11,754 nt of DNA, from assembly GCA_958430865.1 (NCBI GenBank), contig CAUDNR010000317.1, forward strand, positions 8,096 to 19,849, given 5' to 3'. The position numbers were made by a program, and so were the translations under genes. This document shows positions 1-11,754 of this stretch, piece by piece. How positions within the stretch are numbered: position 1 is the stretch's first letter; each line of letters opens with the position of its first letter. Origin of the DNA: Entrophospora sp. SA101. Lineage: Eukaryota > Glomeromycota > Glomeromycetes > Entrophosporales > Entrophosporaceae. The notes under the pieces are model-generated. The model had not been told where the DNA came from. It saw nothing but the letters and a program-made list of their open reading frames with translations, and made no database searches.

Positions 1-3000
1 TAGATGATATACTAGCTAATATATCAAAAAGGAAAAATAAGACTAAAGGAAAAACTGTCACTTTTAATTCACAATTATATATGTTTGCTGATGATAATGT
101 TGATGATGATTATGAGGATTATGAGGACGATGAAGAGGATGAAGAGGATGAAGATATTGAAGTTGGAGGAGATGAAGGAGAGTATGAAAATGAAGAATCT
201 AAAATTGTAATTAAAAAACAAAACCAATTAGAAGTAGATGCCAATAATAATAATATTATTATTCAAATACAAAATCAAGCATATGATGGACTAAACTTTG
301 ATGAAGATATGGATAGAGATAATGGTGTAGTTTACACCAATTTAGAACTAAAAAATGAAGATGTATTAATGACAGAGAAAAAAGAATTTAAAATCGAAGA
401 TAAAAACTTTTCAAATAGTCCTATTGAGAATACTGTAAACCCTTCAACACTAAATAATAATTTTGTATCTATTGATAATAAGACAAGCATTACATCAGAT
501 TCTTCAAAAATGCAAACAGAAAATAATTTTAATAATCTTAATATTAATAAACAAGTAACTATAGATCAATTAATAAGTCCTCCATTAAGTCCAGAACCAA
601 CTCGATTGAATTCCATTCCTAATATTAATCAACAAATGGAGCAGAAATATAACCAGCAGTATAATAATAATAATAGTAATCAACCATATAATAATTATAA
701 TGATCAATCACACAATCAACAAAGTAATAATAACCACCCATACAATCAACAGTACAATCAACAGGATGAACCAAACTATAATGGCAGTTTTGATTCTAAC
801 AATCAACCTCAAATGGCACCAGAATCCACTGGTATTATTTCTCCTACAAATCAAATCGAACTGAACAATAATAATATTCAGCCTCCTAATTCAAATACCT
901 TTGTTCTACCACTTCCTGATGAACCAAATCAGAATATAAAAGCGAGTATTACACCTGCTCTAGGTAGTGATTTCATGGACTTTACTGAAGATGATGAAGA
1001 GGAGGGTAATAATAATTATAACATTAATAAAAAATCTAGCAGTAAAAATGCCCTTGCAGAATATAATAAAATGATGACTTTAAAAGTTCAAGAAGAGAAA
1101 AAAAAAGAAAAAGAAAAACCAGGAGGATTATTCAAGAATTTACTTAAGAAAATTTCACCAAAGAAAAAAGATGAATCTGTCAAATTAGAAATAACCAAAA
1201 ATTTCTCATCGTCATCACTACCACCACCTTCACCATCATCTTCACTACCCTCATCATTTACATCATCATCATCACCATCCAATTCAGCAAAAATTTATAA
1301 TAGTTATACAACTGATTTCAATAATGCCATGAATCATATGTCAAAATCAACAAATAACATCACACCTAATTATATACCACCAACAATAAATCAAAGTCAG
1401 TACCAAATACAACAACAGAAACAACAGAGAGTGATCATCCTCTAGAGATATTTCAATCATTAAATTCATATTCAACTGCTCCATTACCATCCATAAAAAG
1501 AAGCTCAATAGCATCAGTATCTTCAACATCCTCCAACATATCAAATCATCCAAAAATAAAAAATCTTGAATCAAATTATAATGAAAATCCTGTTACTGTT
1601 GCCTTCTATCTAAATAAAAAAATTAGTAGAAATAGTAGATCATCCATTGGTGATAAAAAATTACATTTACGTGTTATAACATATGCTGACGACTTACCAA
1701 CTCATCTACGATCCAAAGGTCCCTTGGCACCAATACCAAGAATATCCTTGTCAGTAACAAAACATCTTGCTGACAAAACAGCTAGGAGGCGTTCACGCGA
1801 GGAAGGAAAACCAAGAGAAAAACATTTGATTGTCAATGGTTTGACAACTGTTGCTGATGTTATATTGAAATCAATGAAGAAATTTGGTATTGTTGATGGT
1901 ATTGTTGATGATGGTGAACACATAGAAAGTAATGATGATGAAATACCACGTTATAGACTAATGCTTAATATAGAAGGAAACGGTATGAATACTTTGACAC
2001 TTGGACATTTTTTAATAAATAAATATTATTATTATAAACATAAAATTAAATGATTTATTATATTTTATATCATAAATAGAAAAGTTATTAAATCCTAAAG
2101 CAGGAATCCTGTCTGAATATCCAACACCACCAAATCTTAGACATTTATCAATTGATTCATTAGATTCCGCTTCTTCACATGCATTGGATTATCTTCCAGA
2201 TGAACCCATTTTTGTTTTACGTCTATTAAAACCTGAAGATCGTATAAATCGTGCAATGCCAGATGCTATTGATCCAAAAAAATATATGCAACAATCATCA
2301 TCATCGTCATTAGAAAAACAAATGATAAATTATAATGAATCTATGAATGAAAATAGTGACAATAATGATGAACTATTGAAAAGAAAACAACTTATTGAAA
2401 AGCAACGTGAATACAGTAGAGCCAAGCAAAAGTCTATTATATCAGCTCATAAAAATACTGAACAAGGTATTGATATTGTCATAAGCGATGGAGCAATTAG
2501 AAGTTCAAGGATTTTTGGTGGGTCAAAAGTACGTTATTCATTTATTTCAGCTGATGGCGAAGAAATTGATATCAGTGACATTGTTGAAGATATTATGGGT
2601 GATGATTATGAGCTTGTGGTAGAGGAGGGTATTGATGAAGATCCAATAAAAGAACAACACCAAAAACATCAAGAAGACTCAAACCTGACACCAATAGATT
2701 TTAGTAATAATAGTAGTAATGAAGAATCATTGTCATCGCCAGCTCCTAACAAAAAGAAATCTTATAGAAGGAGTAGTACCCAAGATGTAGATATTTTGGT
2801 AAAGATTATAGGTCGGGCTCAAAATAGTAATGATGATGAAAGGTCAAGTCAATCATTAGACAAGATTGGTCTTGTAATTGAAAAAGTAAAACAAACTCCA
2901 TCATATAGGTTGAGTAAATCAAACTTAAATCCTAATTCTGATCCGAATTTCAATCCAAACTTTACTCAACCCAATTCAATAATGAGCATAGAATCCGAAA

Positions 3001-3557
3001 ATCAAGATACAGCGGGTAGTTTAGTTTACAAACCTAATAGTAAAACGCAACCATTCCAACAAACAAAAACAAGAGACAGATCCTTTTCCAATTCATCAGT
3101 TAGTTCAGCAAACTTATCATCAACCAATAATCTACAAAAACTTAATAAACATCATCAAATGTCATCATCATCAACATCATCATTATCTGCATTGTCAATT
3201 TCTGAAATTGATTTGGTGTTGTCAGGTGATTTTGGTTTGAAAGAATTGTTGATGCTTGTGAGATCAGGTGTTAATATGTTGGAATTGAGAGAGCGTAGGA
3301 AGAGTGGATGGCATTTAAATGAAGATCCTGAGAAAGTTTTGAAACAAATTAAACCAACTGAAATAAAAGAAGAAATTAAAGATATTTTTTCTGATGTTAA
3401 TCAACAAATTGATAAAATGGAACAGGTTAGTAGTAATTTTATTTTTATTTCAACCCATTTATATATTTTTTAACTCGCATAAATTGTTTATTTACTTTTT
3501 ATATTTTTACTTTAGGATCTCGATAAATTATTGGATGATGTAATAAATACATTTTGA
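1..3557 (+). CDS. Large acidic low-complexity protein with RA/ubiquitin-like core; 5'-partial, one frame break
   Basis: The reading frame is open from the left edge (codons from 3; the Met at 81 is internal), so the 5' end lies outside the window. Proposed coding parts are 3 to about 1427, about 1427-1982, 2080-3425 and 3516-3557. Intron 1983-2079 (97 nt, GTATGA...TAG) joins phase 1 to give EGN|EKLLNP; intron 3426-3515 (90 nt, GTTAGT...TTTAG) joins phase 0 to give MEQ|DLDKLLDDVINTF-stop. Together this is about 1,120 residues. In order: an Asp/Glu-rich stretch, Asn/Gln-rich linkers, a Lys-rich patch (FKNLLKKISPKKK), Ser/Pro runs, a conserved-looking core (1652-2250: LHLRVITYADDLP, a Lys/Arg-rich segment, KFGIVDG, YRLMLNIEG, LLNPKAGILSEYPTPPNLRH, PDEPIFVLRLLKPEDR), a helical RKQLIEKQREYSRAKQ segment, VRYSFISADGEEIDISDI, and a helical C-terminus. 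The core reads like a Ras-association or ubiquitin-like fold of an uncharacterised fungal family; that is inference. No function is assigned. Frames 3 and 2 must be joined between 1370 and 1445 without a credible intron. Confidence 0.8.
1983..2079 (+). other. Spliceosomal intron in the RA-like gene
   Basis: The donor GTATGA follows codon AAC plus one G, and the acceptor is AAATAG. The intron is 97 nt, phase 1. Splicing rejoins the two halves of the RA-like core (MLNIEGN and EKLLNPKAGILSEY) and shifts frame 2 into frame 3, which is required to reach the downstream reading frame. Confidence 0.85.
3426..3515 (+). other. Last intron of the RA-like gene
   Basis: GTTAGT donor after CAG, pyrimidine-rich tail ending TTTAG, 90 nt, phase 0. 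The 42-nt last exon encodes DLDKLLDDVINTF and a TGA stop at 3555-3557, extending the helical C-terminus. Without splicing the frame would end at 3473 in an AT-rich, non-protein-like tail. Confidence 0.85.
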
Positions 3558-4743: not shown

Positions 4744-4925
4744 GTTGTTCACAATACAAAAAAGAAATGATTTTTTTTTTCTAAATTTTTCAAATGAGAT
4801 ATAACTTTAAATACAGATATATTGTTCATTGATACAAAAAAGAAACGTTTTTCTGAGATAAAATCAATAATATAACTAATATACAGTTATATTGATCACG
4901 ATACAAAAAAGAAACATTTCCTGAA
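4744..4925. repeat. Three diverged tandem repeats of about 70-78 bp
   Basis: ATACAAAAAAGAAA occurs at 4754, 4832 and 4901. Around the last two copies the upstream block (ATAACT..A.ATACAG.TATATTG.TCA) is also shared. Copies are spaced 78 and 69 bp apart and lie wholly inside the MITE-like element. Confidence 0.55.
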
Positions 4926-5133
4926 ATAATAATAATAATATTTTAATTTTTTACGTAAAATAATATCACACGTTACTAAAAATAGTAATGATGACCTTTA
5001 ACCCCAATGCAAATATCACGTGAGACCAACTTATCGAGAGATTTACATATACTCTAGAAGAAGGGTTGACCGACTTGCAACTTATCGCAATTTTATATAG
5101 ATTGGCCGAGTTAAGCTAAATCCGATTTATCAA

Positions 5134-5161: not shown

Positions 5162-5386
5162 TTAAGTTTATACGACCAACCCTGTACTGGCAATTTAAAG
5201 TAGAAGCAGTATATTTTTTAATATTTAATGGTTTTATTGATTGATTTTCAATTAATTATTATAATTAGAATAAAAAAAGTTTTTTCTATCTTTTCTACTA
5301 AATGTTCAATTTCTTATATAAATACAAGTAATATTAATAAATGATGTAAAAACTGCATATAACTAATTATTTATTAAAAAAATTGA
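5162..5386. other. AT-rich spacer downstream of the micro-exon array
   Basis: No gene is visible here. It would contain the 3' UTR of the minus-strand kinase/micro-exon gene, whose last exon stops at 5387. The string ACGACCAACCCTG near 5173-5185 is relatively GC-rich and may be the tip of another repeat, but no partner was found in the window. Confidence 0.4.
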
Positions 5387-6963
5387 TTATTCTGATTCAA
5401 TTATTACTATTTCCAAATTTTTATCAACCTCTCCAGGAACATCACTGCTCTGATGTGATTCGGTAATATCATCACCATTTAAACATGCTTCTATGCTCAA
5501 ATTTTTTTGAATTTTATCATCATCGTCATCATCATCATCATCATCACCTTTTCGAATTAAAAAGACGATTTGTAAGATTTTTTCTTTAAGTTTAAATGAA
5601 ATAACTTAATTTATTAATTTAACAAAAATTACTTAATATACAAAGATCCAATTGTCTTGAATCCAAACTTCTAAAGATTGCTGCTAATGAAACTAATAAC
5701 ATATTTCAATTAATAAAATATCTTGATGAATTTTATATTTTATATATAATTAATTACCTTCTTCTTCATTTATTTTATATTTTTCTTTATCTTCTAGAGC
5801 TAATACGATAAAAATATATAGTTTCAATTAATAAAATATGTTGATGAATTTTATATTTTATATATAATTAATTACCTTCTTCATCATTGATTTTATATTT
5901 TACTTTATCTTCTAGAGCTAATACAATAAAAATATATAGTTTGTTGTGCTAATGATGATACTGTAATGACAATAACAAATGATAATAATATTTACATAAT
6001 CCATTGAGTACTGCTGATAATGTAAGACCTAGTTATATTAGAAAATAAATATTAACTATAATAAATATTTTTATAGTATTAGTTAAAATAGGAATGATAT
6101 CACTAATTACCTTCTTGTGAATCAATTTGTGAATTTTCTTCAGTTTCTATAAAAAAAAATTTTTTTTTGAATTTATCAATTGTCTTTTGTTTCCTTTATT
6201 CATTCATCAATTAAAATCGATTAAATTAAACTTTATACCAATAACAGTTCTTAATTGGTTTGATGAAAAATTTGGAATTGCTTTCGATAATGTAAGCACA
6301 AGTTGTTTTGAATCTAAAATTAATTAAAATAATATAAATTGATAACAATTGATATATTCAAATATTTTACCTGATTCAACTAATGTTTCTTCTGTAGTTT
6401 CAAATAGCTCTGAACCTTAATATATAAAATAATAATAATAAATTGTCATGTTGTCTATTTAATTGGATTAATTTTTTTTAGTCAAACAAAAAAATTAACA
6501 AACAATAATAACAATAATTACAAATGTTTGGTATTGTAAGATTTATTAGGGTGCTGTCTAAATTAATTAAATAATAAATTAATTAAATTAAAAAAAATGA
6601 TACATTTTATGTTAACAACTAAAATAATAACTTGATTACCAAATCCTTGCAATCCTGGAGACCTTGGAGATTTTAAAGATTCTGGGGAGTTAGATAATTC
6701 TTCAAAAGATTCCTCTTATAATTGAAAAATCATATAATTAATAATATTTTATTTCGTGATATTGAATAATATAACATTACTATATCTATAATTTACCATT
6801 TGCTTTTGGTATTTGGATTGATTTAGATTCTTAATAAAAACAATTATTAATCAATTAATAATTATTATCAATTGATTAATAATAAATAATAGCCATAATA
6901 ATAATAATTATAAAATATCACCTTTTATAATATTGGACACTCTCAGATTTACTATTTTTGAAT
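5387..6963 (-). CDS. Array of twelve symmetric phase-1 micro-exons, probable variable C-terminal tail of the upstream kinase gene
   Basis: Exons in transcription order: E1 6922-6963, E2 6797-6829, E3 6640-6714, E4 6522-6557, E5 6371-6415, E6 6239-6313, E7 6111-6146, E8 5996-6028, E9 5876-5917, E10 5758-5799, E11 5642-5692, E12 5387-5547. E1-E11 are 42, 33, 75, 36, 45, 75, 36, 33, 42, 42 and 51 nt. Every one is a multiple of three with GT donor and AG acceptor, and every junction is phase 1. The introns between them are 57-106 nt. Peptides include E1 DSKIVNLRVSNIIK, E2 ESKSIQIPKAN, E4 DSTLINLTIPNI, E5 CSELFETTEETLVES, E7 ETEENSQIDSQE, E9 SLEDKVKYKINDEE, E10 ALEDKEKYKINEEE and E11 VSLAAIFRSLDSRQLDL. 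E12 is an Asp run followed by an acidic end (VIIESE) and TAA. The array has no start codon or signal peptide of its own; the kinase C-terminus (donor at 7056) is in the right phase. Joined, it would add 223 residues. It is not a recognised domain and the function is unknown. Confidence 0.65.
5704..5939. repeat. 118-bp tandem duplication of a micro-exon plus intron
   Basis: Two head-to-tail copies (5704-5821 and 5822-5939) differ at about five positions. Each contains one 42-nt exon (E10 and E9), its donor GTAATT, its acceptor ATTAG and flanking intron. Three differences fall in the exon: one is silent, the other two are E/V and E/D changes. Confidence 0.85.
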
Positions 6964-7056
6964 CTATAGTAAAAATACCGATTATAAATGTTATGTGTAT
7001 TATATATTATATTTAAATTAAAAATCATAGAATAATTAATTAATCTTTAAAGAAAC
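6964..7056 (-). other. Predicted alternative intron linking the kinase to the micro-exon array
   Basis: The donor GTTTCT sits inside the last kinase codons (ACT AGA G|GT), and the acceptor TTTTTACTATAG precedes E1. The length would be 93 nt, phase 1, matching every junction of the array. When retained, the kinase stops at 7040. A second in-phase donor (GTGATT at 7071) would give 108 nt. The donor hexamer is weak, so this join is an inference. Confidence 0.5.
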
Positions 7057-8538
7057 CTCTAGTTGAATCACCATCATCATCACTATCTGATATGTCATTG
7101 TCATCATTTTCAATCTTTGGAAATTTTATAAACCTGCTGACATAAATTGCTTCTGGATGTAACTTGCCTTTTGAGGGGTCAGAATTCGCAATATATTCAT
7201 CAGATGCCAGAAAATCTCGACCTATATCACTAATTGGATTATCAGATATACTCCAAGACCACTTATAAAGATGCATTGATAATTGTTTTGCTGTTGGTCT
7301 TTTTTTGGGGGACTTGTCTAAACAACATTCTGCTAAATCTTTATAACATTGAGGCGTTCCATTACCAAAATCAGGTCGTGATCCATTTACAATTTCAAGT
7401 GTCATCTGTGAATCATGTGGTTTGTTACCAAAAGGCCTTGTTCCTGATGATACTTCTGCCATTATTATGCCAAAGCTGTAAATATCCGATTCTTTTGTAT
7501 ATTTCTTGCCAAGTAAAATTTCTGGTGCAACGTATGGCAGTATCCCATAAATCTTGGTGTCTGGACTAGTTTTATCTTTGTATGATTTTGTTAATCCAAA
7601 ATCTGTCAGATAACTGATTATTTTTTCCCCATTGCTTGGTGAATGTTGTAAAATATTTCCTGTATGTAAATCCTTATGTACGAATTTTTTAGTATGTAAT
7701 GTGTCAAGATCTGTGGCTATATTTGCCAAGTAATTTAATTTTTCTGTCCATTTAAGTTTTTTAAAATTATATTCCAGATAATCTCGCAGATTTCCCCTGT
7801 TGGCATACGCCGTCACCATCATATACTCTAATGTTTTTGGATTTTTGGTCATTCCATAAATCTTAAGAAATGTATCAAACTCCAAGGAACATAAAACATG
7901 AATCCTAACCTTTTAAAATATATAATTTTTTGATAAATTATTATGATTATTATAATAATTATTATCAATATTCATTAAATAAATAAAAATTATTAAATAG
8001 CTATATGAATAAATAGAAATAGTGAATGTACGTAATACATATTATATATGTATATATATACACACGTATATATATTTTTATCAGGTTATCTTACCTCCTC
8101 CAAAAAATCTGCACAAGACCCTTTTGTTGTTGATGTTTTTATACATTTCAATGCAACTATACGTGCCGTGTCTGTAACGCTTCTATCAGTAAAAGTAGCC
8201 TTGAACACACTACCAAATCCACCTTCGCCAATCTTTCGAAAATCCTTAAATTTATTAAATGGTATCCATTCAAAAAAATAAGAAGAATCCTTTTCTCTCA
8301 GTTTCTCCTGAGCTTCTTCAATCAATCGATCTACTTCTGGATTACAACTTCCATATTCATAATCACTATATTTTGGTAAATCACACTTGTAACACCACGG
8401 TAATGATTCGTATGGTTCTGAACATTCATTACATGCTTTATTTGAAGTTCTTGATGAACATGAATTGTTGGAATCTGTTGAGCCAGTTGAATTGTTATTG
8501 TTGCTATTAATTTCAGTATATGAAGAAGACTCACTCAT
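7040..8538 (-). CDS. Protein kinase with N-terminal CxxC pair (Glomeromycotina-expanded family)
   Basis: Two exons: 8538-8095 (148 codons) and 7909-7040. They are separated by a 185-nt intron 8094-7910 (GAGGAG|GTAAGA...TTTAAAAG|GTTAGG, phase 0) that restores FLEE|VRIH; the product is 437 aa. Residues 1-35 are Ser/Asn-rich. CNEC (36-39) and CYKC (49-52) form a possible zinc site. An acidic helical linker (VDRLIEEAQEKLREKD) leads into the kinase domain: glycine loop IGEGGFGSVFKA (103-114), Lys131 in VALK, HKDLHTGNIL with the catalytic Asp228 (HKD rather than HRD), Asn233, DFG (251-253), APE (276-278), SDIYSFG with Asp290, and RPTA near 352. All catalytic residues are present, so it should be active; substrates are unknown. 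The tail after about 405 is acidic (DDNDISDSDDDGD) and stops with TAA. A phase-1 donor just before that stop could instead splice into the micro-exon array. A TTTATAAAAG box lies about 10-20 nt upstream of the ATG. Confidence 0.9.
7910..8094 (-). other. Intron in the kinase gene
   Basis: GTAAGA donor and TTTTAAAAG acceptor, 185 nt, phase 0. It falls at the alphaC helix of the kinase N-lobe. Its interior is AT-rich, with TATATA runs and nothing coding. Confidence 0.88.
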
Positions 8539-9111: not shown

Positions 9112-10485
9112 GCGTTATTACTTCTTTTTGAATCCTTGTCACGCGCACATGCTCACTAATACTCTCGTTATTTTTTATTTTTTCTAATCTTTACCTCGAG
9201 GAGCACCACTTTTAATTGATTCTGAATGTGGTTGAAATTCAGGTTGAAGTCCTGAATTCAATTCTAAAGTTGCCCTTAACTGTCGTCTAAAAATTATAAT
9301 TAATGATAATTAATAATTAATAGATAATTATCGAATATATATAAATATAAAATACGATTATTTACATACCCAATTGATTCACAGACTGCTTTATTATTAG
9401 ATGTTCGTGTCCATAAAGATATTCTATAGAGAATTTTACGAACAGAAAAAACAACCCCACAAACTTCATCAGAATATTCGAAACTTTCACCAATACAAGC
9501 AAGCATCTAATAATAAAAATCAGAATGATAATGATGTTAATTAAATTATATGTTCACAAAGGACATTATACGATGATGATGACGAAAAAAGATTTTTTTT
9601 TTTATGATTTATTTGAATCTCTTCACTCAATATAACAATAATAGATACTTTTTAAAACATTCTCTAATTGTTCTTTCCAAAATTCTGGTCTTTTTATTCA
9701 CATACAAACACACAAATATAATATAATACACATATATATAAAAATTATATCTGGATTAATAATAATAAAATCAATCATCATCATCATCGCATAATAATAA
9801 TTATAATTATGATAACAATAGTAAAAATAACTAACCGTATGAAGCCAAAGTTTATTAATATCATCACCAATTTTATTTTTATGAAATTGGATTACCCATT
9901 TTCCACCTCTTTCATTTTCTGGATCTTCCCACATCGGTTTTATTCCATGTTTAAAAAGATGATAATTTGAATTGGTAGATAATTCACTAGCTTTGTAAAT
10001 ATTATTGTACACTCTATAAATATATATATATATATTAATAAAATGATATATTTGTAAAATTTTTTATATTTTATAAAATAAAATAGACAAAATGGAATTT
10101 ACCCCCAAAATTCTTCTACTGAATCAAATGTTATTAATTCCTTCAGATGTTGCGACCAACTTACTGTGTTAGCTTTTTTCCCCGGATTATCAAACCATAA
10201 TGTCCATGCATTATATAAAGGATGTTTGACATTAAAGTTTACTGGATCATTGAAAACAGTTCGTAGTTCACCTTCCTGTAAAATATTCTCATTATCTTCA
10301 AATTCAGGCAAAGTACCTACTGCTTTATTATTATCGTTTTCATTGTTATTAATTTTATCATTATCATTATCATTGATTTTGCTGTCATTGTTGTTTTTAT
10401 TGATTTCAATGTTATCAGTGTTGTTTTCATTATCAGTAGTATTGATGATTTTGACTTCCCCTTTAGCGTTATTATTTTCAGTCAT
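8950..10485 (-). CDS. eIF4E: Translation initiation factor eIF4E (mRNA cap-binding protein)
   Basis: Five exons: 10485-10103, 10013-9836, 9506-9370, 9286-9195 and 8993-8950 (introns 89, 329, 83 and 201 nt). The product is 277 aa. It binds the mRNA 5' cap in the cytoplasm and recruits eIF4G. The first 55 residues are an Asn/Asp low-complexity tail; the eIF4E fold starts near NFNVKHPLYNAWTLWF (83-98). Cap-stacking Trp110 (VSW) and Trp156-Glu157 (PMWEDPEN) are present, as are the RGGKW turn (163-167), the SVRK basic pair (210-211) and SLWT (217-220). VEEFW (123-127) is part of the eIF4G-binding face. Both aromatic cap residues being Trp favours class I eIF4E over 4EHP. The M at 9506 is internal (LHT|MLACIGES). 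If the last intron is retained, the protein ends at 9184 with RGKD (266 aa); if spliced, it ends REEGWLIESNEWVIE. The spliced form is preferred because donor, acceptor and phase all fit. Confidence 0.92.
8994..9194 (-). other. Last intron of eIF4E carrying a microsatellite
   Basis: The donor is GAG|GTAAAG and the acceptor ATTAAAAG, 201 nt, phase 1. It joins the SGAPR end of exon 4 to EEGWLIESNEWVIE-stop. About half the intron is an AAT/TTA repeat. An in-frame TAG at 9184-9186 gives the shorter protein if it is retained. Confidence 0.6.
9016..9111. repeat. TTA/AAT trinucleotide microsatellite
   Basis: About 96 bp of TTATTA repeat with a few G or C interruptions (TTG, ACT). It lies in the predicted last intron of eIF4E, or in its 3' UTR if that intron is not removed. 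Confidence 0.9.
9507..9835 (-). other. Long second intron of eIF4E
   Basis: 329 nt, GTTAGT donor and TTATTAG acceptor, phase 0, between LHT and MLACIGES. Splicing is required by the conserved eIF4E order. It holds TCA and CA/TA simple repeats. The minus strand at about 9643-9697 also has a short protein-like run (PEFWKEQLENVLKS) that does not belong to eIF4E. Confidence 0.85.
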
Positions 10486-11372: not shown

Positions 11373-11406
11373 CTGATCAAAAAATGGATAAAAAATATGC
11401 ATTAAG

Positions 11407-11754
11407 GTGGCTAAACGTTTAACGCACTTTTTCAAGTCACTTGGAGTTCATTATGTATTCGATATTTCGTTCTCACGAGATTTTTCTTTGTTGGAAAGTG
11501 CACGTGAATTTGTTCAAAGATTTCGTGACTCTCAACAAGAAAATCAATCATATGATAATAACAACAAAGAAGGATCGGCTGGGACAAGATATGGAAATAA
11601 TAATAATAATAACCATTCGCAGCAACAAAAATACATGCCTATGTTGGCTTCAGCATGTCCAGGTTGGATTTGTTATGCTGAAAAAACTCATGGGTTTGTT
11701 TTACCATATGTTAGTCAAACTAAATCACCACAACAAATAATGGGTGTCTTGGTT
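11407..11754 (+). CDS. NAR1: NAR1 / CIAO3 iron-hydrogenase-like Fe-S assembly protein, partial at both ends
   Basis: Frame 1 from 11407 runs to the window edge. It reads [39 protein letters not shown], a Gln/Asn-rich insert, then [18 protein letters not shown] and [19 protein letters not shown]. The [19 protein letters not shown] and [16 protein letters not shown] blocks are characteristic of NAR1 (CIAO3/NARFL), the [FeFe]-hydrogenase-like component of the cytosolic iron-sulfur cluster assembly machinery. The Cys in SACPGW belongs to the conserved cluster-binding set. An acceptor (GCATTAAG at 11399-11406) probably starts this exon, because TAA at 11389-11391 closes the frame just upstream. 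The N-terminal part with the first Fe-S site is not found upstream in the window; a minus-strand gene fragment lies there instead. The low-complexity insert (about 35 residues) is a lineage expansion. Confidence 0.88.

Follow-up and report, generated by a model that had tools for sequence, protein, structure and literature searches.

In Entrophospora sp. SA101, the best explanation for the exon chain described here, held with good confidence, is a kinase gene of an arbuscular mycorrhizal (AM) fungus whose coding sequence continues past the kinase domain, by way of a phase-1 donor, into some eleven tiny exons, likewise in phase 1, and a final exon; this tail most likely grew by duplication. The gene lies on the minus strand of the DNA that was analysed (11,754 nucleotides of contig CAUDNR010000317.1, hereafter the window, to which positions refer). 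The chain is present in the window and departs from randomness. The best-scoring complete gene model joins it to the kinase, and most of the tail occurs in frame in Entrophospora candida.

Judged from its translation, the gene is a protein kinase of the expanded AM fungal kinase family (PF07714/PF00069). Kinase exon 1 (8095..8538, minus strand) starts with ATG and encodes the N-terminus, the glycine loop and the VALK lysine. It is identical in the public proteins P0002-P0004, and its match to PF07714 is weak, slightly below the cut-off. The following intron (7910..8094, minus strand) is in phase 0, has the form GTAAGA...AG and is called by the self-trained gene model presented below. P0002 and P0004 read ...LEEVRIH over this intron; since GTAAGA can itself be translated as VR, this mapping leaves an ambiguity of two residues. 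Kinase exon 2 (7057..7909, minus strand) carries HKDLHTGN, DFG and APE, and matches PF07714 with an E-value of 2.7e-36 and 125.6 bits (cut-off 23.1). It ends at a phase-1 donor in ...DGDSTR; left unspliced, it would stop at 7042-7040 (RGFFKD followed by a stop codon). The catalytic motifs of protein kinases are the glycine loop, the VALK lysine, H.D..N, DFG and APE. The translation contains GEGGFGSV, VALK, HKDLHTGN, DFG and APE.

AM fungi possess a very large kinase family, the diversification of which is little understood. The kinase protein used as query gave 607 matches at E ≤ 0.001. With one kinase model, 1908 candidate places were obtained in the genome at first look, 146 of which were scored. 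Within the genome, the DNA copy nearest to this kinase (L009, C630:107000-113184) is 89% identical over ~350 bp. By eye, it is a broken fragment, split by unrelated sequence and devoid of tail.

Downstream of the complete kinase, eleven GT/AG-bounded segments followed by a stop-containing last exon were rebuilt on the minus strand between 5387 and 6963, where the preliminary description had claimed twelve tiny exons, all in phase 1. The eleven micro-exons measure 42, 33, 75, 36, 45, 75, 36, 33, 42, 42 and 51 nt, in this order. Each is 33-75 nt long, a multiple of three, and is entered and left in phase 1. All the tail introns are of the GT...AG type, and no in-frame stop is created by any join, as had also been claimed. 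The introns between micro-exons span 57-106 nt, and the final intron 37-142 nt depending on the choice of donor and acceptor. The GC content is 0.21-0.37 in the micro-exons versus 0.11-0.21 in the introns. Since all the tail introns are in phase 1, the frame would survive the duplication, loss or skipping of an exon plus its intron.

Micro-exon 1 (6963-6922, 42 nt, DSKIVNLRVSNIIK) is followed by micro-exon 2 (6829-6797, 33 nt, ESKSIQIPKAN) and micro-exon 3 (6714-6640, 75 nt, EESFEELSNSPESLKSPRSPGLQGF), the 3' end of which is longer in two public models. Then come micro-exons 4 (6557-6522, 36 nt, DSTLINLTIPNI), 5 (6415-6371, 45 nt, SELFETTEETLVES), 6 (6313-6239, 75 nt, DSKQLVLTLSKAIPNFSSNQLRTVI), 7 (6146-6111, 36 nt, ETEENSQIDSQE) and 8 (6028-5996, 33 nt, GLTLSAVLNGL). 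Micro-exon 9 (5917-5876, 42 nt, (S/A)LEDKVKYKINDEE) has a tandem copy in micro-exon 10 (5799-5758, 42 nt, ALEDKEKYKINEEE). Micro-exon 11 (5692-5633, VSLAAIFRSLDSRQLDL(CILK)) is 51 nt long if it ends at 5642, as in the preliminary description, or 60 nt if it ends at 5633, the form found in the self-trained model and in all six public proteins. The last exon (5387..5604, minus strand) contains an aspartate run and ends with the stop codon TAA at 5389-5387. Its candidate acceptors are at 5604, 5583, 5547 and 5490. That at 5490 is used in P0001-P0004, and the junction residues are identical in P0121 and P0052. In its longest form, the last exon has no stop in the used frame, versus 7 and 18 in the other two.

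A splice-aware hidden Markov gene model was self-trained on ~125 kb from this genome; positions 5300-7060 were excluded, and no rule was set on phase or exon length. It calls nine of the eleven micro-exons, all in phase 1 and joined to the kinase donor at 7057. The nine called exons are micro-exons 2, 3 and 5-11 with the coordinates given above, the last of them (5692-5633) having its donor 9 nt beyond that of the preliminary description. Micro-exons 1 and 4 are skipped by the model and are less certain members of the chain.

The tail was found in six public proteins: P0001-P0004 and P0121 from SA101, and P0052 from E. candida. Tail-bearing predicted proteins are thus public, five from SA101 and one from E. 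candida, and gene callers, contrary to what had been foreseen, did not leave the region blank. P0001-P0004 match the translation of the window exactly over the exons that they include. All six models contain micro-exons 3, 6, 7, 8, 9 and 11, as well as the beginning of the last exon. Three models, including that of E. candida, contain micro-exon 1; micro-exons 2 and 5 are likewise in three, micro-exon 10 in two, and micro-exon 4 in one (P0001). Five of the six models derive from the DNA of the same strain.

The public SA101 models also omit pieces of the kinase domain, likely, and most simply, as a result of the masking of a repeated family. SA101 is described as Claroideoglomus claroideum/luteum in PMC6987183, the gene-calling passages of which give GeneMark-ES on repeat-masked assemblies with Swiss-Prot protein hints, the transcriptome being unused there. 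From their names, the public models of the tail in both SA101 and E. candida are apparently ab initio predictions without transcript support. The possibility that the public models represent splice isoforms was rejected: they are predictions on the same locus, apparently from the transcript-free pipeline of those passages (PMC6987183) or a similar one, and parts of the kinase are dropped as well. As the skipping of kinase-domain pieces fits masking, the exon differences among the models are not evidence for alternative splicing.

A regulated array of splicing cassettes, in which the skipping of micro-exons would yield many alternative kinase tails as the preliminary description had suggested, is compatible with the kinase gene and duplicated tail proposed here, and can be entertained tentatively. 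All the micro-exons (11/11) are symmetric. None of the 12 donors (7057 and those of micro-exons 1-11) has a G at position +5, versus 19 of 49 confident introns (p 0.012, uncorrected and one of several comparisons). The overall donor strength, however, equals that of other introns (6.48 in the gene versus 6.33, p 0.60), so that regulated skipping through weak sites is a possibility only. The symmetry of the exons is explained by frame-neutral duplication without regulation. The differences among the public models seem to be artefacts of gene prediction, probably due to masking, and parts of the kinase domain are cut in these models too.

Among complete models, splicing of the tail to the kinase is favoured but not proven. 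The joined model scores -3037.4. A kinase that stops at 7040 scores -3046.5 if a separate gene having a start of its own follows, and -3123.9 if non-coding DNA does. The donor at 7057 is weak (4.3 versus a mean of 6.33). When it is removed, the model uses 7072 and scores -3039.6. The cost is small, 2.2 nats, because 7072 can substitute. Donor 7057 is used in P0001-P0004 and in the self-trained model, and the same STR junction is found in P0121 and P0052.

It is improbable that the micro-exon chain is instead a separate small gene with its own start, downstream of a kinase ending at 7040. Such a kinase would use the in-frame stop at 7042-7040 and carry 30 residues after the shared C-terminal motif, and six AM fungal relatives do end roughly 10-60 residues after this motif. 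The model can build the separate gene with a first exon at 7028-6953. If that gene is permitted to start inside an intron at no cost, its first exon being unseen, the score of -3034.5 is slightly above that of the join. Once a start codon is required, however, the joined model is better by 9.1 nats, and the start exon is backed by nothing except the choice of the model itself. The tail is joined to the kinase at ...DGDSTR in the six public models.

Regarding the origin of the tail joined to the kinase, growth by in-frame duplication of units made of an exon and its intron is most likely. This reading stems from two observations: a recent tandem copy within the tail, and exon-pair repeats that vary between two copies of another kinase gene. 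The former is a tandem duplication of one exon with its intron (5704..5939, minus strand), with a 118-bp unit that holds micro-exons 9 and 10. The two copies differ at five sites, three of which are within the 42-nt exon. At the protein level, internal likeness is clear in the micro-exon pairs 9/10 and 1/4 only (z 7.0 for the resemblance of micro-exon 1 to micro-exon 4). The likeness is weak for the pairs 6/11 and 8/11, uncorrected for the 66 pairs.

The second kinase (L047, C1446:9000-16800) has a tail of 417-bp tandem units in 3.8 copies, unrelated in sequence to the micro-exon tail. In the self-trained model, this tail consists mainly of 144- and 108-nt exons between phase-1 introns, although its early part also includes an intron in phase 0 and several exons of unusual size. 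A second copy of this gene (L066, C1046:81500-85500) is 97-99% identical in two long aligned pieces and lacks one pair of 144- and 108-nt exons, ~410 bp, relative to L047. A third, partial copy of the L047 kinase is present on C1750. The difference of one unit between L047 and L066 could be allelic, nuclear or due to the assembly, in which repeats may have collapsed.

Eighteen other kinase tails were hand-picked, non-randomly, from the better of 149 matches, and all 18 are counted here, including L051, where the scan ended after 45 nt, and L058 and L059, where it continued into the next gene. In only one of the 18 (L060, C136:27060-29260), four exons of the tail are predicted to follow phase-1 introns, and a pair of these exons is alike by eye (YSSRILDDDIV.. 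and YSSRILDDDIA..). The first predicted intron past the fetched start is in phase 1 in 8 tails and in another phase in 4; it is absent from 6. Phase 1 accounts for 16 of 49 confident introns and for 85 of all 214 introns called in the sampled sequence. At these rates, twelve consecutive phase-1 introns would not be expected from independent draws. The micro-exon tail is best read as an extreme case of kinase tails growing via in-frame exon duplication.

The E. candida model (P0052) holds micro-exons 1, 3, 6, 7, 8, 9 and 11 together with 20 residues of the last exon, at which point it breaks off. Its alignment with the window, counted by eye, gives 5 differences over 142 tail residues and 3 over the 136 other residues aligned, and the frame is nowhere broken; micro-exons 6, 8 and 9 show one substitution each. 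Protein divergence is therefore similar in the tail and in the kinase flank. The preliminary description had staked the chain on frames being preserved in relatives, and in E. candida the seven micro-exons included in P0052 do keep the frame.

These figures also bear on the idea that the tail is a decaying relic, the unused exons of a once longer tail behind a kinase that now stops at 7040. In its favour, the kinase still has an intact stop at 7040, support for micro-exons 1 and 4 is weak, and the recent 118-bp copy bears no sign of purifying selection (3/42 exon sites differ versus 2/76 other sites). A relic is nevertheless quite unlikely: the 510 nt of micro-exon sequence are free of stops and frameshifts, as is the E. 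candida model, and the protein diverges alike in the tail (5/142) and in the kinase flank (3/136).

Protein searches of the public database revealed no relative of the tail outside Entrophospora up to an E-value of 10. Within its own genome, the tail DNA gave 93 matches, none of which was counted as a relative besides the locus itself. Off the locus, most matches hit the GAT-rich simple repeat in the last exon, the others being short matches to AT-rich stretches. The tail protein gave seven rows, six at the locus and a weak one on C1651 (E 1.46). The latter was discarded as a tail relative, as by eye it sits in an unrelated-looking gene. Searches of open-access literature found no description of a micro-exon array in an AM fungus, although one may exist.

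The log-odds of the tail region is 90.5 with the self-trained model, compared with a mean of 4.7 (sd 4.7, maximum 17.7) for 400 dinucleotide shuffles. Symmetric micro-exons form a run of up to 9 in the real region, versus at most 3 in the shuffles, a value reached in one of them. The antisense sequence scores -4.3 and the reversed sequence 12.7. Local shuffles (900, with 300 each at 20, 40 and 60 nt) keep the patchy GC content and represent a null of patchy non-coding composition. Against this null, the real region scores 95.0; none of the 900 shuffles scores above 39.8 or contains a run longer than 3. Over the eleven micro-exons, there is no stop in the used frame versus 14 and 15 in the other frames. 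Shuffling the micro-exons yields 10.6 stops on average, and none of 5000 shuffles was stop-free. The region also outscores 44 genomic segments labelled non-coding by the same gene model. As these segments were picked by that model, their low scores are selected and the null is biased; the shuffles are relied on instead. Much of the log-odds of the region is supplied by the AT-rich introns, and the deletion of a single exon shifts it by just -7.2 to +1.9.

The preliminary description had argued that stops and phase clashes should appear quickly by chance in DNA this rich in AT. Taken alone, this argument is weak since GT and AG are common in such DNA, and dense here; the shuffles, for their part, never come near the real score. 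By the gene model, the shuffles and the stop counts, the symmetric phase-1 chain attached to a fungal kinase that had been proposed is far beyond chance. A fortuitous chain of short open segments, which could be joined anywhere in AT-rich intergenic DNA with many GT and AG (62 and 86 in the ~1.76 kb of the micro-exon region), is thus very unlikely, even if the exons were initially chosen by eye with the frame as guide and several contribute little or no score singly, as the score is reached, or a symmetric run of 3 exceeded, in none of the 400 dinucleotide and 900 local shuffles, the antisense and reversed sequences fall far below it, nine of the eleven exons are found by a model without phase rule, and the frame is preserved in E. 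candida.

The gene would be transcribed and spliced along the predicted exon chain. The resulting tail, of roughly 210-240 residues, would have a fairly acidic composition with much serine and threonine, and would probably be mostly unstructured. Acidic residues make up 20% of the tail pieces, serine or threonine 18% and basic residues 10%. AlphaFold2 run on the single sequence of P0121 alone gave a mean pLDDT of 31; at this value the structure prediction says nothing about the fold. For the kinase, the tail may be a flexible and variable segment that serves in docking, as a substrate or in regulation; the number of exons, more than their sequence, would be the main variable.

Two kinases thus have tails made of frame-neutral exon units in the self-trained models, and one of them varies by a whole unit between assembled copies. 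This would offer a simple route by which kinases could gain new tails without the risk of a frameshift. It is conceivable, at the level of a working conjecture, that Entrophospora kinases possess a frame-proof means of diversification: a phase-1 donor past the kinase domain would feed arrays of tiny phase-1 exons, with duplication, loss and perhaps skipping of whole units, so that tails would vary between paralogues, between nuclei or haplotypes, and between transcripts. Masking combined with ab initio calling probably mangles such kinase genes in public annotation.

The window contains other features. A gene for eIF4E is found at 9195-10485 on the minus strand, with PF01652 in the first exon and several introns, the exons being those of the self-trained model. 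On the plus strand, a large gene for a low-complexity protein extends from 81 to 3539 with three main exons in the self-trained model; its open frames at 1370-2053 and 2076-3473 have no Pfam match at E 0.001. A further open frame on the plus strand (11392-11754), cut by the end of the window, matches the iron-only hydrogenase large-subunit domain (PF02906). A 68-bp tandem repeat in 2.1 copies is intergenic at 4799-4941. Elsewhere in the genome, contigs C1363, C450, C314, C1331, C35 and C1084 contain the same match at least two times in opposite orientations with equal scores. These contigs are perhaps chimeras from the assembly of amplified nuclei.

The present protein has the kinase domain in common with the AM fungal kinase-like family (PF07714/PF00069). 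Several kinase-like proteins from Rhizophagus, Gigaspora, Diversispora and Acaulospora share, by eye, a cysteine-bearing N-terminal segment and a C-terminal HPEAIY.SR-like motif. Six AM fungal relatives compared by eye have no tail like that of the Entrophospora kinase.

Micro-exon genes (MEG) of schistosomes have coding sequences dominated by symmetric micro-exons, and their products carry a signal peptide, are secreted and undergo alternative splicing. The resemblance lies in the consecutive tiny, frame-neutral exons that are multiples of three, here eleven and all in phase 1. In the Entrophospora gene, however, the micro-exons make up 510 nt of ~1.9-2.0 kb of coding sequence, most of which is kinase, and at 33-75 nt they are somewhat larger. 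No hydrophobic stretch was seen by eye in the N-terminus (MSESSSYTEINSNNNN), unlike secreted MEG products.

In animal extracellular proteins, exons encoding folded domains have been duplicated and shuffled in phase 1. The same-phase symmetric exons of the kinase tail likewise permit in-frame tandem duplication, but they encode pieces of 11-25 residues in a fungal kinase tail and not folded domains.

The bicycle genes of aphids have phase-2 micro-exons and encode secreted proteins with a signal peptide and a CYC motif. They too show an array of short same-phase exons; the exons are in phase 1 here, and the protein is an intracellular-looking kinase with no hydrophobic N-terminus by eye. The comparison with MEG and bicycle genes drawn in the preliminary description therefore holds for the exon architecture, which is analogous, and does not extend to the N-terminus or to the coding sequence, most of which is kinase.

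Bicycle genes are named as a family defined by exon structure in PMC11333574. The passages of the same paper on SP7-like effectors of AM fungi describe a signal peptide, one conserved intron before imperfect hydrophilic repeats, of which there are 6-11 per protein, and a conserved island (PMC11333574). These effectors resemble the present protein as repeat-bearing proteins of AM fungi. They differ from it in that the latter has a kinase domain and, by eye, no hydrophobic N-terminus, and a micro-exon chain is not part of the SP7-like architecture as described in those passages (PMC11333574). The gene belongs to none of the MEG, bicycle or SP7 families; it is a member of a known kinase family with an unusual micro-exon tail.
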